From Candidatus Goldiibacteriota bacterium HGW-Goldbacteria-1 (GTDB taxonomy: Bacteria > Oederibacteriota > PGYV01): DNA of 64,000 bases. The notes under the pieces are model-generated. The model had not been told where the DNA came from, did not search any database, and worked only from the letters and a program-made list of their open reading frames with translations. Positions 32,436-46,184 of the stretch are shown in pieces. The number at the start of each line of letters is the position of its first letter. Position 1 is the stretch's first letter. The DNA is taken from contig PGYV01000004.1 in the NCBI GenBank assembly GCA_002839855.1, positions 327,988 through 391,987 of the forward strand, written 5' to 3'. The translations under genes were made by a program, and so were the position numbers.

Positions 32436-33458
32436 CTACATCCGGCCGGCCAGTTTTTTTATATCACCAAACCGGGATGACTTAAAATCAGGGTTTAATT
32501 TATTTACAACTTTTAAATCCGCGTAGCCGTAGGTCAGAAAAAAAGTAAAACAACCGGCGCGTTTTCCCGCTTCAACATCAAACTGGCTGTCGCCTATCAT
32601 AAGGGTCTGGCTTTTATCAATTTTATACTTTTTCATTAAAAGGTTCAACGGGTACGGGTGGGGTTTTCTTTTGGCCACGGATTCGCTGCCCAGTATAATA
32701 TCAAAATAACCGTCTATTCCAAGTTCTTCATTAATGCCCTTTATGTACCGGGAAAGCTTATTGGAAACAATGGCAAGTTTGACTCCCTTTGACTTTAATT
32801 CCTTTAACGTTTCTTTAACACCCTTAAACATTATAAGGCCTTTTTTATAGTTAATGTCATATAAACGCCTGTACTGTTTTATCAGTTTATCCATTGAAAC
32901 ATTTTTTATAACGTCAGGAAACATGTCTTCTATAAAGTTATCAAGCCCGGTGCCCACCGCGGTGTGCACCTGTTCCATGGTAAATTTCTTCATGCCGTAA
33001 TACGCTGCCATGGCATTAGCCGTGGCAAGTATTCCCGGCGCGCTTTCAACCAGTGTGCCGTCAAAATCAAAAATCATAAGTTTAAAATTGTAATCTGAAT
33101 TTATTGTGTCGTCGTGTGAATAAGGGGGAGAGCACGCGCAGATTATTTTTAAAACGCCCCTGCCCGTGTTTTTTACTTTATGGAGAACGCCCGGCGGAAT
33201 AAGCACGCTGTCATTTTTTATTACCTTAAAACTTCTGCCATTAAGCGTCATTATGCCGCTGCCCGCGGTAAAGTAATATATTTCCTCTGTTTTTATGTGT
33301 TTGTGCCCAATTGTGGAAAGCCCCGGTTTTAAGCTTGCTTCCGCAAGGGTGACGTTTTTCACCGGCGCGTTTGTGGTGTCTGTTATAACGCGGATTATGG
33401 AGCTGTCTTTGGTGACAAAAGGTTTTACTTTTTGAATATTGCTTTTATGTATTTTCAT
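32436..33458 (-). CDS. Cupin-HAD phosphatase fusion protein
   Basis: 340 residues with two domains. Residues 1-105 form a small cupin with metal-ligand-type motif 'GHKHIKTEEIYYFTAGSG' and 'GVLHKVKN'. Residues 123-335 form a HAD hydrolase of the phosphoglycolate-phosphatase group: nucleophile motif 'FDFDGTLVES' (near 129), 'VSNKLSRYIKG' as motif II and 'MIGDSQFDVEAG' near 288. It probably dephosphorylates a small phosphorylated metabolite, with the cupin as ligand sensor or isomerase. The fusion is unusual and is in one uninterrupted frame. It overlaps the PHP phosphatase gene upstream by 4 bp. Confidence 0.87.
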   Translation of the reverse strand: MKIHKSNIQKVKPFVTKDSSIIRVITDTTNAPVKNVTLAEASLKPGLSTIGHKHIKTEEIYYFTAGSGIMTLNGRSFKVIKNDSVLIPPGVLHKVKNTGRGVLKIICACSPPYSHDDTINSDYNFKLMIFDFDGTLVESAPGILATANAMAAYYGMKKFTMEQVHTAVGTGLDNFIEDMFPDVIKNVSMDKLIKQYRRLYDINYKKGLIMFKGVKETLKELKSKGVKLAIVSNKLSRYIKGINEELGIDGYFDIILGSESVAKRKPHPYPLNLLMKKYKIDKSQTLMIGDSQFDVEAGKRAGCFTFFLTYGYADLKVVNKLNPDFKSSRFGDIKKLAGRM

Positions 33459-34255
33459 TTTATCTTTACCATTACGGGTTTTCTGTTTTTAAACACGGCA
33501 ATTTCTTTAATGCCTATCTCTTCAAATATTTCATACGCGCGCTTTAACCCGTAAAAAGTGTCCTTAACATAGTGCGAATCAGAGCCCACAGTGATTATTT
33601 TTCCGCCAAGTTCCATGTATGCTTTTAGCACATCCGCTCCCGGAAGCATGTCGCCGCCGTGATACCTGAAACCGGATGTGTTAACCTCTATTCCCGCGCC
33701 GCGGGAGATGAGTGTTTTTAAAATATCATCAATTTCCTTTTTAAACATCTCGTAGCCGTATTCCGGCAAAAACTGCACGCCGCGCCTGTGCACAAGGTTT
33801 AAATGTCCTAAAACATCAAAATTACCGTAAGAGGCAAGTTTGTAAACCTCTTCAAAATACGCTTTGTAAGCGTCTTTAATATCAGAATACTGCTGAAAAT
33901 ACTCTTCATACACAGGGGTAAATTCGCCCACATGGTGAAGCGACCCCATTATAAAATCTATATCCTTATTTTCTATGTACTTTTCATATTCATCATGAAA
34001 AATATGCGGCTCGCCGGCTTCAAACCCTTTCATAAGATTGGGAAATCCGCCGCGCGCGTCTTCTATAGCTTTGGTGTAACCGGTGTAATTAAACTTTGTG
34101 TGATTCTGTTTGTGAAGCGGGTGAAAATCAAGGTGTTCTGTAATTGTAATATAGCCCACGTTTTCGGCCTTGGCTTTTACAAGTACTTCATCTATGGCCT
34201 GGGAAGCGTCCCAGGAAAATGACGTGTGCAGGTGCGAATCTGTATAGTTGTACAT
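33455..34255 (-). CDS. PHP-domain histidinol-phosphatase (HisJ-like)
   Basis: About 266 residues from the ATG at 34255, chosen because 'aaagga' lies seven bases ahead; an ATG 18 bases further upstream has no ribosome binding site. The PHP metal-binding motifs are complete: 'DSHLHTSFSWDA', 'TITEHLDFH', 'FIMGSLHHVGEF' and 'ITVGSDSHYVKDTFYG'. This is the HisJ family, which removes phosphate from histidinol phosphate or related sugar or amino-alcohol phosphates. Other histidine genes are absent. It overlaps the cupin-HAD gene by 4 bp, so two phosphatases are co-made. Confidence 0.88.
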   Translation of the reverse strand: MYNYTDSHLHTSFSWDASQAIDEVLVKAKAENVGYITITEHLDFHPLHKQNHTKFNYTGYTKAIEDARGGFPNLMKGFEAGEPHIFHDEYEKYIENKDIDFIMGSLHHVGEFTPVYEEYFQQYSDIKDAYKAYFEEVYKLASYGNFDVLGHLNLVHRRGVQFLPEYGYEMFKKEIDDILKTLISRGAGIEVNTSGFRYHGGDMLPGADVLKAYMELGGKIITVGSDSHYVKDTFYGLKRAYEIFEEIGIKEIAVFKNRKPVMVKIK

Positions 34256-34280
34256 CTTTTTTCCTTTTGACATTTAATGT

Positions 34281-34313
34281 AAAAAATCCACGGGCACACA
34301 CCCGTGGATTTTT
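34281..34313 (-). terminator. Intrinsic terminator of RNase P RNA
   Basis: Strong stem (aaatccacggg / cccgtggattt, loop of about 6) with a T-run on the minus strand, starting about 7 bp after the 3' end of the RNase P RNA. It also lies just upstream of the PHP phosphatase gene start. Confidence 0.9.
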
Positions 34314-34319
34314 ATTTAA

Positions 34320-34706
34320 AACGGCAGTGTAAGCCGGATTCTGTGTCCCCGTTGCCGGGGTGCCAGCCATTAATCTTAGCGGTCTACCCGGAGCTTAAGA
34401 GATGAAGCATCCCTGCCCCTTTGCTTGCGCAAAGAGATCTGCCCCCTATTTGACCTTGCTCCCGGTTGGGTTTTCCGTGCCGTGTCGCTTGCGCTTCACG
34501 CGGTGGGCTCTTACCCCGCCTTTTCACCCTTACTCCGTCATGAAAATATCATACACGGAGCGGTCTGTTTTCTGTGGCACTATCCTTTACGCTGCGCTTT
34601 CGCGCCGCGCACCCCGCTGTTCTAGTGGGAACCGTGCTCCATGGAGTCCGGACTTTCCTCGGAAGAATCATCTGAATATTCCTCCGTGGCCAGCTGCACT
34701 GCCGTT
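34320..34706 (-). ncRNA. rnpB: RNase P RNA, bacterial type A
   Basis: Catalytic RNA of RNase P, about 387 nt. On the minus strand the conserved 5' block 'gaggaaagtccggactcc' (about 34644-34661) and 3' block 'acagaatccggcttac' are both present. Helix P1 is a perfect 10-bp pair between the ends (34697-34706 with 34320-34329). A P3-like hairpin (ggaggaat / attcttcc) lies between P1 and the conserved block. Length and layout fit type A. An intrinsic terminator follows. The 5' 85 nt overlap the coding end of the LemA-like gene on the same strand. Confidence 0.95.
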
Positions 34707-35260
34707 AACTTGCTCTCTTCAATCTGTGGTAATTCGGTAAAACCTTTCGATTTTGCCAGAAGAACAAAGGGCATGGTCTTTATGCGGAAATTATACTCGC
34801 TTACCGTGTCCCTGTAATGATTGCGCTTTATCTTATATTCATGTATAAACTCTTTTGTAACAAGGCCCCATTCAAGGTAGTAAAACCTTTCGCGCCTTAA
34901 TTCCATTTTCTTATTGTACTGTGCAATTATGGTATTAACAGACTCTTCAAGTTTGCCTATGTGCGCGGCTTTATCTTTTAATGTGTCGCCGCCAAGAATA
35001 ATGCTTCTGGCGCCTACCGCTTCGTCAAAAGGTTTGGGGTCGTATTTCATTTTATCCTTATCCATCATTTCCCTGTACTTAATTGTCCTGTCCACTATCT
35101 TGCTTACGTAATATTCCATTCTGCCCCAGTCCTCAACCGAATAACTTTTAAGGTTCGTAAGGGATTGGGTAAAAACCCTGTCAAACATTACAAGGCTGAT
35201 AAAACCGCCTATTGCCATTCCTATTAGTACTAAAATCAGGGTTGTCAGTTTCTTAACCAC
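34622..35260 (-). CDS. LemA-like membrane protein with C-terminal tail overlapping rnpB
   Basis: 212 residues: one N-terminal membrane span (about 5-27), a helical coiled-coil-like body, and the LemA-type signature 'HYRDTVSEYNFRIKTMPFVL' followed by 'AKSKGF'. LemA proteins are membrane-anchored helical bundles of uncertain role. The family normally ends soon after 'GF'; here an acidic Ser/Glu-rich tail of about 30 residues ('YSDDSSEESPDSMEHGSH') is encoded inside the 5' end of the RNase P RNA. Ribosome binding site 'ggaggtata' is just upstream. The overlap is real in sequence; the tail probably has no conserved function. Confidence 0.78.
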   Translation of the reverse strand: MVKKLTTLILVLIGMAIGGFISLVMFDRVFTQSLTNLKSYSVEDWGRMEYYVSKIVDRTIKYREMMDKDKMKYDPKPFDEAVGARSIILGGDTLKDKAAHIGKLEESVNTIIAQYNKKMELRRERFYYLEWGLVTKEFIHEYKIKRNHYRDTVSEYNFRIKTMPFVLLAKSKGFTELPQIEESKLTAVQLATEEYSDDSSEESPDSMEHGSH

Positions 35261-35386
35261 GTTATACCTCCGGGTTATTGTTTTGCACCATGAAAACCAG
35301 TTTTTAAGCCGTTATTTATTATATCAATTGAATAGCGGGTATGTCAATTCTGAATTGGGCTGGGGAGGGGATATGTTTGTTTACTG

Positions 35387-41848: not shown

Positions 41849-43087
41849 TTATAGTTTAGTTTCCTCTTTATCGGCTAATTTCAGAACCTTGTGTTTTTTA
41901 AAAATATCCGCATATTTGCAGGGGTTATTAGTATGAATTGGGATAATTACACCCGGTTTCAACTTATCAGCCAGTTTCTTCAGGGCTGCTACATCCGCAT
42001 GCCCGGATGCATGGATTTTACACATTTCGACATTTTTCCCCGCCCAATAGTTATTTTCCTGCTTTAGATACCCTTCCCACATCGACCAAATTACCCTTGA
42101 GCCTTCCAACTTCTTCTTGAACGCTTCCCTGACATGATGGTGGTCGATTATTACGTACTGCTCAGGGTTTTCTAAAATTTCTTTAACCGATATTTTATTC
42201 TTACCGAATTTATATATCTTATAATCTTTAAAAATTACCTTTGAGTGATTGCTATTTTTTACACAATAAACCTTAATATTATTTGCGTTATATTTAGGCA
42301 TGCTTATAGGCCATTTTTCAAGTATGTATGCCTGATATGGATCGATAATAAACGTCTTGCGAGTTTTAACACAGGCTCTATAAATACTCCTGAACCTTCC
42401 GATATTCTGACTGCTGAACGAAATAAAAGTCAGCCCTTTATGTTCTTTCTGTAGTTCTTTAACAAGATCATCTTCCACGTTTTCTTCGGTACGGTTCTGC
42501 CTTTCAGTCCCCCCTATCATCGTTCCTTCAAGCAGCAGTGCATCTACCTGCTCGTTAACTCCTTTTAACAAGTTCTCAAACACCCAATTTCTCTGCCCAT
42601 TCGCCCTGAAGTCACCCGAATACACCAGCGTTTTCCCGCCTGCCTTAACTTTAAAAGCCATAGAATCATAAGCAGAGTGGTCTACGCTATAAGCTGTTAT
42701 CTCGAAAGGCCCGATAATAAATACTTGTTTATCTTTTATCATTCTAAAACGGCTTTCACTAATCTTGAATTTTTCCAGCATTTCAGAAATAAGAGTTAGG
42801 TCAATGCTCCCTTTACTTGCGTATACAGGAATGCTCTCTGCCGAATAGGCAATCAGGCCGTAGTGGTCCTGGTGCGAGTGGCTTAATAGAATTGCATCTA
42901 TATAGGGTTGTTTGTATAATCCTGGTTCGTCTGGCAGCATTTCTCGTGCTTTACGTTTGTCAAAATTCTTACCGTCTTTATCATATAGCGGTAAACCCAT
43001 GTCAATTATGATAGCGTGGCCGTCGTGAGAAATCTTTACGCAGCTCCCGCCGATTTCCAAAGAGCCGCGAAGAATGGATAGTTTCAT
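41849..43087 (-). CDS. MBL-fold hydrolase, RNase J/beta-CASP-like (second copy)
   Basis: 412-residue metallo-beta-lactamase-fold protein. Motif II is 'LLSHSHQDHYGLIAYS' (near 70-76), motif III His lies in 'YSVDHSAYDSMAF', and motif IV Asp is in 'LVYSGDFRANGQR'. The C-terminal part has 'IHASGHADVAALKKLADKLK' (near 361) and 'VIIPIHTNNP' (near 382), the order found in beta-CASP nucleases such as RNase J and CPSF73. Processing or decay of RNA is therefore likely. It overlaps the 43084 gene by 4 bp and is a divergent paralogue of the protein at 44817-46184. Confidence 0.82.
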   Translation of the reverse strand: MKLSILRGSLEIGGSCVKISHDGHAIIIDMGLPLYDKDGKNFDKRKAREMLPDEPGLYKQPYIDAILLSHSHQDHYGLIAYSAESIPVYASKGSIDLTLISEMLEKFKISESRFRMIKDKQVFIIGPFEITAYSVDHSAYDSMAFKVKAGGKTLVYSGDFRANGQRNWVFENLLKGVNEQVDALLLEGTMIGGTERQNRTEENVEDDLVKELQKEHKGLTFISFSSQNIGRFRSIYRACVKTRKTFIIDPYQAYILEKWPISMPKYNANNIKVYCVKNSNHSKVIFKDYKIYKFGKNKISVKEILENPEQYVIIDHHHVREAFKKKLEGSRVIWSMWEGYLKQENNYWAGKNVEMCKIHASGHADVAALKKLADKLKPGVIIPIHTNNPCKYADIFKKHKVLKLADKEETKL

Positions 43088-44816: not shown

Positions 44817-46184
44817 TTACAGTTTTATTGTCTTTCCTCTTTCAAGCATCACCACATCACCGTGCATTTTTTTAAAGGCGTCCGGGTTTTCGGTGTGGAC
44901 CGGGATAATCCGCTTTGCCGACACGCCGTCTATCATCTTTTTAACCCCTGCGTGGTCTGCGTGGCCGGAACAGTGAATTTGGGCTAACTTCATCCCAAAG
45001 TGGTCAAGCCAGTTATTAAGGCAGTCGCGGTATTCTTCGTTGCCTTCGCCTTCAATGTAATGTTCGGACATGGAATATACAAAAGTACCTTTGCCCGGCT
45101 GTATGTCAATAAGCTGCGACAGTTCGGACGCGGACATGAACATTACCGTGTCCTTTAAGTTTTTCTTTACCCACTTATAATCCACGGTTCTTTCAAGGTA
45201 TGGCTTGGCGTAGATGTAAGAACGCTTGTCTTCTGCGGCTATGTCGCCGTCTTTGTTGAAGATTTTTATGTTGGGATTGCCGATAATATCCGGCATGCCT
45301 TCTACTATGTGTTTGGCGTTGTCCACCGCGTACCCAAACCCCGCATTGCACACCAGCACTTTTCCTGCGCGCTTTGCCGCATTACACAGGCTGCGCACCC
45401 TGTCTAAATTACGAAACGAGAAATTAAAGCAGGTAAGCCCCTGTGACTTTTTCATGGTTTCGCAGAATTCATTTTCTACGTCAGATTCGGTCATTTTTTT
45501 CTTAAACACAGCGTCATCAGATGCGCGCACCCTTGTGCCTTCGGTTATAAGGTAATCTGCCCCGGCTTTTTTTGCGGCCCTTATAAAATCTTCTGTCATT
45601 TCCGGTTTAAAACCGTGAAAGCGGTAGTCCCCGGAATAGGCAATTGTGCCTTCGGGGGTTTTAATAATAAAACCATACGCGCCGGGGACTGAATGGTCCA
45701 CATGGACAGGCGTTATTTCAATATCTTTTATCTGAAAACTTTTCCCCGATTTAAACTCCACCACATTGCCGTTGTCTTCTGATTTAAAAGAGGGATATAT
45801 AGTATTAAACGTGTCATTAATTTTTTTGGAGCCGTGCCCCATATATACTGGAATTAAAGGGTCCACATCTGCCACATCGCCAAAATGGTCGCAGTGGATA
45901 TGGGAGATTAGAATTGCGTCGTAGGCGGGCTTTTTGTATTTTAGGTCTGTGTAATACAGCGCTTCTTTGCTGTAAATGCCTTCTAACTTTGGCACAATGC
46001 CAAATTCAAAGTAATCGCGCAGCCCTAACTTGCCGCGCGGGTTTACAAATTCCAGCCCGCTGTAAATGCCTTCGCCGCGGTCAAACGGAATGCCAAAATC
46101 CAGAAATATCTTTGTCTTTCCCGCTTCTAAAAGTATCTTATTGCCGCCTATTTCGTTTGCCCCGCCAAATGGTGTTATTCTCAT
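44817..46184 (-). CDS. MBL-fold hydrolase, RNase J/beta-CASP-like (first copy)
   Basis: 455 residues. It starts 'MRITPFGGANEIGGNKILLE' (the RNase J-like 'GG..EIGGN' opening). Motif II is 'ILISHIHCDHFGDVAD' (near 95-102), 'VHVDHSVPGAYGFII' gives motif III and 'IAYSGDYRFHGFKP' motif IV. The C-terminus has 'IHCSGHADHAGVKKMIDGVS' (near 403) and 'IIPVHTENPDAF' (near 428), as in beta-CASP ribonucleases. It overlaps the activator gene by 4 bp, so it is the first gene after the regulator. An RNA-processing role is inferred from the family. Confidence 0.85.
   Translation of the reverse strand: MRITPFGGANEIGGNKILLEAGKTKIFLDFGIPFDRGEGIYSGLEFVNPRGKLGLRDYFEFGIVPKLEGIYSKEALYYTDLKYKKPAYDAILISHIHCDHFGDVADVDPLIPVYMGHGSKKINDTFNTIYPSFKSEDNGNVVEFKSGKSFQIKDIEITPVHVDHSVPGAYGFIIKTPEGTIAYSGDYRFHGFKPEMTEDFIRAAKKAGADYLITEGTRVRASDDAVFKKKMTESDVENEFCETMKKSQGLTCFNFSFRNLDRVRSLCNAAKRAGKVLVCNAGFGYAVDNAKHIVEGMPDIIGNPNIKIFNKDGDIAAEDKRSYIYAKPYLERTVDYKWVKKNLKDTVMFMSASELSQLIDIQPGKGTFVYSMSEHYIEGEGNEEYRDCLNNWLDHFGMKLAQIHCSGHADHAGVKKMIDGVSAKRIIPVHTENPDAFKKMHGDVVMLERGKTIKL

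Follow-up and report, generated by a model that had tools for sequence, protein, structure and literature searches.

The gene for RNase P RNA (rnpB) in this genome begins inside a protein-coding gene: the last 28 codons and the stop codon of a LemA-like reading frame on the same strand also serve as the 5' part of the ribozyme. The arrangement recurs in every genome of this order of uncultured bacteria in which rnpB is assembled, the end of the protein is conserved as protein, and the one good promoter sequence of the locus stands before lemA, with none at the usual rnpB position. We consider it likely (probability about 0.7) that lemA and rnpB form one transcription unit, that the ribozyme is processed from lemA mRNA, and that the overlap arose when the lemA frame ran on into rnpB.

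A LemA-like reading frame ends inside rnpB

The window analysed is a 64,000-nt stretch of DNA, and all of its features given here lie on the minus strand. A scan of the window against Rfam release 15 at the gathering threshold returned class A RNase P RNA as the sole RNA family (RF00010, 34706..34316, 222.6 bits, E 6e-71, gathering score 100, model positions 1-367). The full-model match and the closing helix P1 identify rnpB (34316..34706) as a class A RNase P RNA lacking P18, with predicted catalytic activity. P1 consists of 10 perfect pairs (34706-34697 with 34329-34320), its 5' strand reading AACGGCAGTG (34697..34706) and its 3' strand CACTGCCGTT (34320..34329). Because P1 pairs perfectly and covaries across families, with both-sided changes at several pairs, the 5' end of rnpB is secure and not an artefact of the model.

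The LemA-like coding sequence (34622..35260, 212 aa) starts with GTG, six bases downstream of a Shine-Dalgarno sequence GGAGG (35267..35271), and stops with TAG inside rnpB. The 85 nt shared by the two genes (34622..34706), that is, the last 28 lemA codons plus the stop, span P1, P2, P3, the conserved GAGGAAAGUCCGG block, which is universal in RNase P RNA, and the beginning of the P4 region; the 5' strand of P1 thus doubles as codons of the protein's tail. An earlier note on this DNA had P1 closing at 34706, the LemA-like frame continuing to 34622 and 85 nt in common, and the RF00010 match and the open reading frame agree with this exactly; the covariance model sets the 5' end at 34706, and not downstream of 34622. 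On the 3' side, rnpB is followed by a PHP-domain-like gene (33455..34273), a conserved neighbour.

The overlap is conserved across the order

We compared the 2.86-Mb genome that contains the window with 13 relatives from the order, 12 of which have rnpB assembled; several of these assemblies are split into many contigs, and one or more come from metagenome assembly. In all 13 rnpB-holding genomes, representing six families (f1 to f6), a LemA-like coding sequence on the same strand enters rnpB. The distance from P1 to the lemA stop ranges from 23 to 124 nt, being 85 nt in f1 (three species, all of the window's genus), 23 nt in f2 and f4, 37 nt in f3, 31 nt in f5, and 49, 60, 124 and 124 nt in f6. 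This recurrence places the overlap beyond chance and rules out an accidental run-on confined to one species. The PHP-domain-like gene lies 3' of rnpB in every genome of the order whose contig extends far enough.

In several relatives P1 is prolonged into the coding sequence as a stem of 13-23 bp. The longest, in G012 (L044), has 23 bp and no mismatch, about twice the usual length, and its outer half is lemA coding sequence. In two f6 genomes (G007 and G013) we rejected the rnpB 5' end assigned by Rfam as too late: P1 forms about 70 nt upstream of it, where the 3' strand pairs with AACGCCGGTG, a sequence that also matches the sister species, and P1 extends to 17 bp. At P3 these two genomes have an insert of about 115 nt, which is folded and leaves the lemA frame open.

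As a separate structural feature, P18 is missing from RNase P RNA throughout the order (L034-L045), with 24 model positions absent between P16/17 and the 3' part, and is kept in f13, a family of the same phylum.

The C-terminal tail is conserved as protein

The LemA-like protein is a divergent LemA relative. It scores 28.3 bits against Pfam LemA (PF04011, cut-off 26.2), and several of its counterparts in relatives fall just under that cut-off. Its AlphaFold2 model (mean pLDDT 84.8) predicts an N-terminal membrane helix followed by an antiparallel helical bundle, as in the LemA family, and the single significant PDB match is a LemA protein, 2ETD (E 8.5e-4, TM-score 0.73 by target). A search for defence-system matches to the protein found none. 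Two further, canonical lemA genes lie at other loci of the same genome. The PKVDF-type C-terminus of canonical LemA is absent here, and a PVxxATE[EK]Y tail (region LTAVQLATEEYSDDSSEESPDSMEHGSH) stands in its place.

Confidence in the model holds as far as about residue 192, and disorder is predicted from residue 193, so that the portion encoded by rnpB includes TAVQLAT, a short stretch that is modelled, and an acidic end that is disordered. The earlier note had described an acidic tail of about 28 residues outside the LemA fold; a tail lying beyond the fold stands, but at about 20 residues, since disorder begins only at residue 193; residues 185-192, its first part, are modelled with confidence. 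Nor is the tail an extra add-on foreign to LemA, as had been supposed, for it occurs across the order. The alignment of LemA homologues that the same note proposed places it in all 13 proteins, gapless from the conserved Pro178 through Glu193, which is invariant, to Tyr195 (12/13).

The families differ in where this tail is encoded. In f1, f5 and f6 its conserved residues are encoded by P1-P3, whereas in f2, f3 and f4 they are encoded 5' of rnpB, free of RNase P constraint, and rnpB begins 23-24 codons later. Even so, the number of residues separating the tail from the LemA core is the same whether the tail is encoded inside rnpB or not. We used this difference in a frame and register test, in which the rnpB-encoded peptides of f1, f5 and f6 were scored against the f2, f3 and f4 proteins by mean BLOSUM62. 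The true frame and register scored 15.3, while the 74 others had a mean of -12.1 (sd 4.3) and a maximum of -1.0. A score this far from the rest would be difficult to account for if the tail were not translated and retained, and the use of tails encoded outside rnpB rules out that the similarity merely echoes conservation of the RNA.

These data bear on the simplest alternative, that the overlap is a harmless run-on in which the lemA frame is open by accident and the protein makes no use of its tail. Predicted disorder after residue 193 and the variation in tail length between families would suit this explanation, but we regard it as unlikely, given the gapless conservation up to Glu193 and Tyr195, which extends to the families that encode the tail outside rnpB, and a weak preference of substitutions within the overlap for third codon positions (15/27, p 0.014). 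At the level of sequence, the comparisons show constraint on both products of the overlap, RNA and protein.

Promoter and terminator signals

Upstream of lemA lies a promoter sequence (35318..35347; TTGACA-N18-TATAAT, with TG before the -10) that matches the consensus at 12 of 12 positions. It is 58 nt before the lemA start, with a predicted transcription start near 35311, and is probably the promoter of a joint lemA-rnpB unit. Extended -10 promoters occur 27-58 nt 5' of lemA in 11 of the 13 order genomes, nine of them exact; the G005 contig starts within the -10, and in G004 no promoter was found upstream of lemA. A pattern search of the 2.86-Mb genome for the exact extended -10 consensus found it only twice, before lemA and before tRNA genes, where the second copy (L112 1402-1487) drives tRNA-Leu(taa) and then tRNA-Met. 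This suggests that the exact consensus marks a stable-RNA class of promoter, and a promoter of such apparent strength would be more fitting for a stable RNA than for a membrane protein of minor importance.

At the usual position of an rnpB promoter, by contrast, none of the 13 order genomes has a usable -10 hexamer, whereas several families elsewhere in the phylum carry TATCAT, TATTAT, TATGAT or TATAAT at -4 to -13 before rnpB. In a comparison of G000 with G002, lemA has diverged most in the 25 codons that immediately precede P1. The locus thus has the configuration expected of a processed RNA: a promoter stands before the mRNA, and the 5' end of rnpB has no conserved one. Directly 3' of rnpB is a terminator-like hairpin with a U run (34282..34313, -23.3 kcal/mol, z -5.1), which the consensus scan that gave the promoter matches did not report.

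An rnpB promoter could instead lie inside the lemA coding sequence, yielding a short leader to be trimmed and leaving the upstream promoter mainly to lemA. There is precedent in small RNAs that start within a coding sequence, such as MicL and DapZ (PMC9438474). The best candidate is ATTACA-17-TATAAT (34818..34790), found by consensus scan with 10/12 matches, which lies 84 nt 5' of rnpB in the window's genus and is kept in G002. In G001, however, its -10 reads TACAAT, and the other families have no counterpart there. The -10 is moreover read from conserved Tyr-Asn codons, so that conservation of the protein explains its retention, and promoter-like sites of 9-10 matches are common by chance inside these genes. 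We therefore judge an internal promoter of this kind to be quite improbable, though a promoter of non-consensus type may also be present within lemA. The earlier note had posed the choice as one between promoter elements within the coding sequence and processing from LemA mRNA; that framing was right, and the position of the promoter and the lack of one at rnpB favour processing.

A model for maturation of RNase P RNA

As the sole good promoter precedes lemA, RNase P RNA is most likely cut from lemA mRNA. Transcription would begin at the stable-RNA-class promoter before lemA, cross both genes and end at the hairpin 3' of rnpB. Ribosomes would translate the LemA-like protein and terminate inside the 5' part of rnpB, and a nuclease would cut or trim the mRNA up to helix P1 to give RNase P RNA. 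This nuclease is probably RNase E/G, which is encoded in 12/14 genomes. RNase J was considered for the role and set aside as less likely than RNase E/G, having no match above the family cut-off in the genomes of the order. The long P1 stems of some relatives (23 bp in G012, 17 bp in G007 and G013) could act as processing stems.

Several points weigh against processing. G004 shows no promoter before lemA, P1 in the window's genus has only 10 bp, without a long processing stem of the f6 type, and repeated translation across P1-P3 should hinder folding of the RNA, which is a cost to the model.

Elsewhere in the window, two metallo-beta-lactamase-fold proteins (41849-43087 and 44817-46184) match the RNase J family model weakly, their scores of 76.7 and 84.1 bits falling short of the cut-off; this RNase J-like pair adjoins an unclassified 303-aa open reading frame and an ankyrin-like one.

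A further, more doubtful idea is that each lemA-rnpB transcript supplies one product only, so that LemA and RNase P would be reciprocally coupled in a conserved switch that uses the double-coded bases of an essential ribozyme. A cut at P1 would yield RNase P RNA and deprive the lemA part of its stop codon, so that tmRNA would have to rescue it, while full translation would have ribosomes unfold P1-P3. A tmRNA scores above cut-off in 9/14 genomes, that of the window included.

Origin of the overlap

Canonical lemA genes also occur next to rnpB outside the order. In part of f13, from the same phylum, canonical lemA lies directly 5' of rnpB and stops 8-10 nt before it, and in G053, from another phylum, its TAA abuts the first base of rnpB with zero gap (L079 1258-1259). 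The lemA-rnpB neighbourhood is for this reason probably older than the overlap. We suggest that lemA lost its canonical PKVDF end and stop codon, that the frame ran on into P1-P3, and that selection on the protein afterwards acted on the C-terminal tail so gained.

How the two overlap geometries came about is a more balanced question. The shift of rnpB by 23-24 codons between f1/f5/f6 and f2/f3/f4 has about even chances of reflecting a tandem duplication, or a contraction, of the rnpB 5' end; after duplication the upstream copy would have been retained for the protein it encodes and the downstream one for its RNA. In favour of this, f3 seems to carry both copies in frame (IIEPKIKTEKYIKDD, then KPVEAVAEENE), and f2, f3 and f4 have in common an RNase P change in P10/P11, from ACCGCC...GUAAGGGUGA to GUAGCC...GUGAUAGUGA (L036, L041, L037, L042, L038). 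The nucleotide similarity between the two putative copies is weak, however, and the shared P10/P11 change conflicts with the rpoB/gyrA tree. The species tree, built from rpoB, rpoC-N, gyrA and other markers, has the topology ((f1,f6),(f2,f4)) with f3 and f5 outside; by separating f3 from f2/f4 it would require more than one event, or a transfer. A deletion with convergence on TE[EK]Y may be the alternative to duplication. A single-event history is unsupported by the marker tree, whose topology implies at least two changes in the history of the overlap.

Comparison with known systems

The closest published bacterial case is that of Staphylococcus aureus, where a gpsB(SA1279)-rnpB transcript is matured to RNase P RNA, with RNase J generating the 5' end (PMC3937233). 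There too RNase P RNA forms the 3' end of an mRNA, out of which it can mature, but the upstream gene is gpsB, with a coding sequence that stops short of rnpB, and a weak start at the 5' end of rnpB also contributes (PMC3937233). The trimming is done by RNase J (PMC3937233), which the order studied here seems to lack. The RNase P RNA of insects and crustaceans lies in an intron of a host gene and is excised from it (PMC6797745), and in this case likewise its own promoter has been lost and the RNA is cut from the host transcript, although the intron belongs to a Pol II gene, there is no coding overlap, and the nucleases are eukaryotic (PMC6797745). Regulatory RNAs that are released by processing of mRNA 3' ends, CpxQ among them, are common (reviewed in PMC9438474), and resemble the present case in that a stable functional RNA is freed by a cut near the stop codon. 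They are, however, regulatory and come mostly from 3' UTRs (PMC9438474), while the RNA in the present case is an essential ribozyme, and the bases it shares with lemA are conserved at the level of the protein.

Nearest in gene order are the canonical lemA genes upstream of rnpB in G020, G031 and G053, which have the same order and strand and closest gaps of 0-10 nt; unlike the genes of the order, they keep a PKVDF-type end of their own and stop before rnpB. Ribozyme helices that double as the code for a conserved protein end are a feature of none of the three published systems, as far as the papers cited show. The open-licence literature searched held no relevant report of LemA together with rnpB, or of RNase P RNA overlapping a coding sequence, and we found in it no published case of P1-P3 as conserved coding sequence.

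Significance

RNase P RNA is among the most conserved RNAs of life and is usually regarded as a stand-alone gene. Gene callers that bar overlaps between coding sequences and RNA genes will truncate or omit genes such as the LemA-like one described here. The locus offers a natural example of protein sequence arising from a structured RNA gene and then being retained. This order keeps the 5' domain of the ribozyme double-coded with a membrane protein and has seemingly abandoned the promoter of rnpB itself; if the processing model is true, the tail of an mRNA can be the source of a universal ribozyme.
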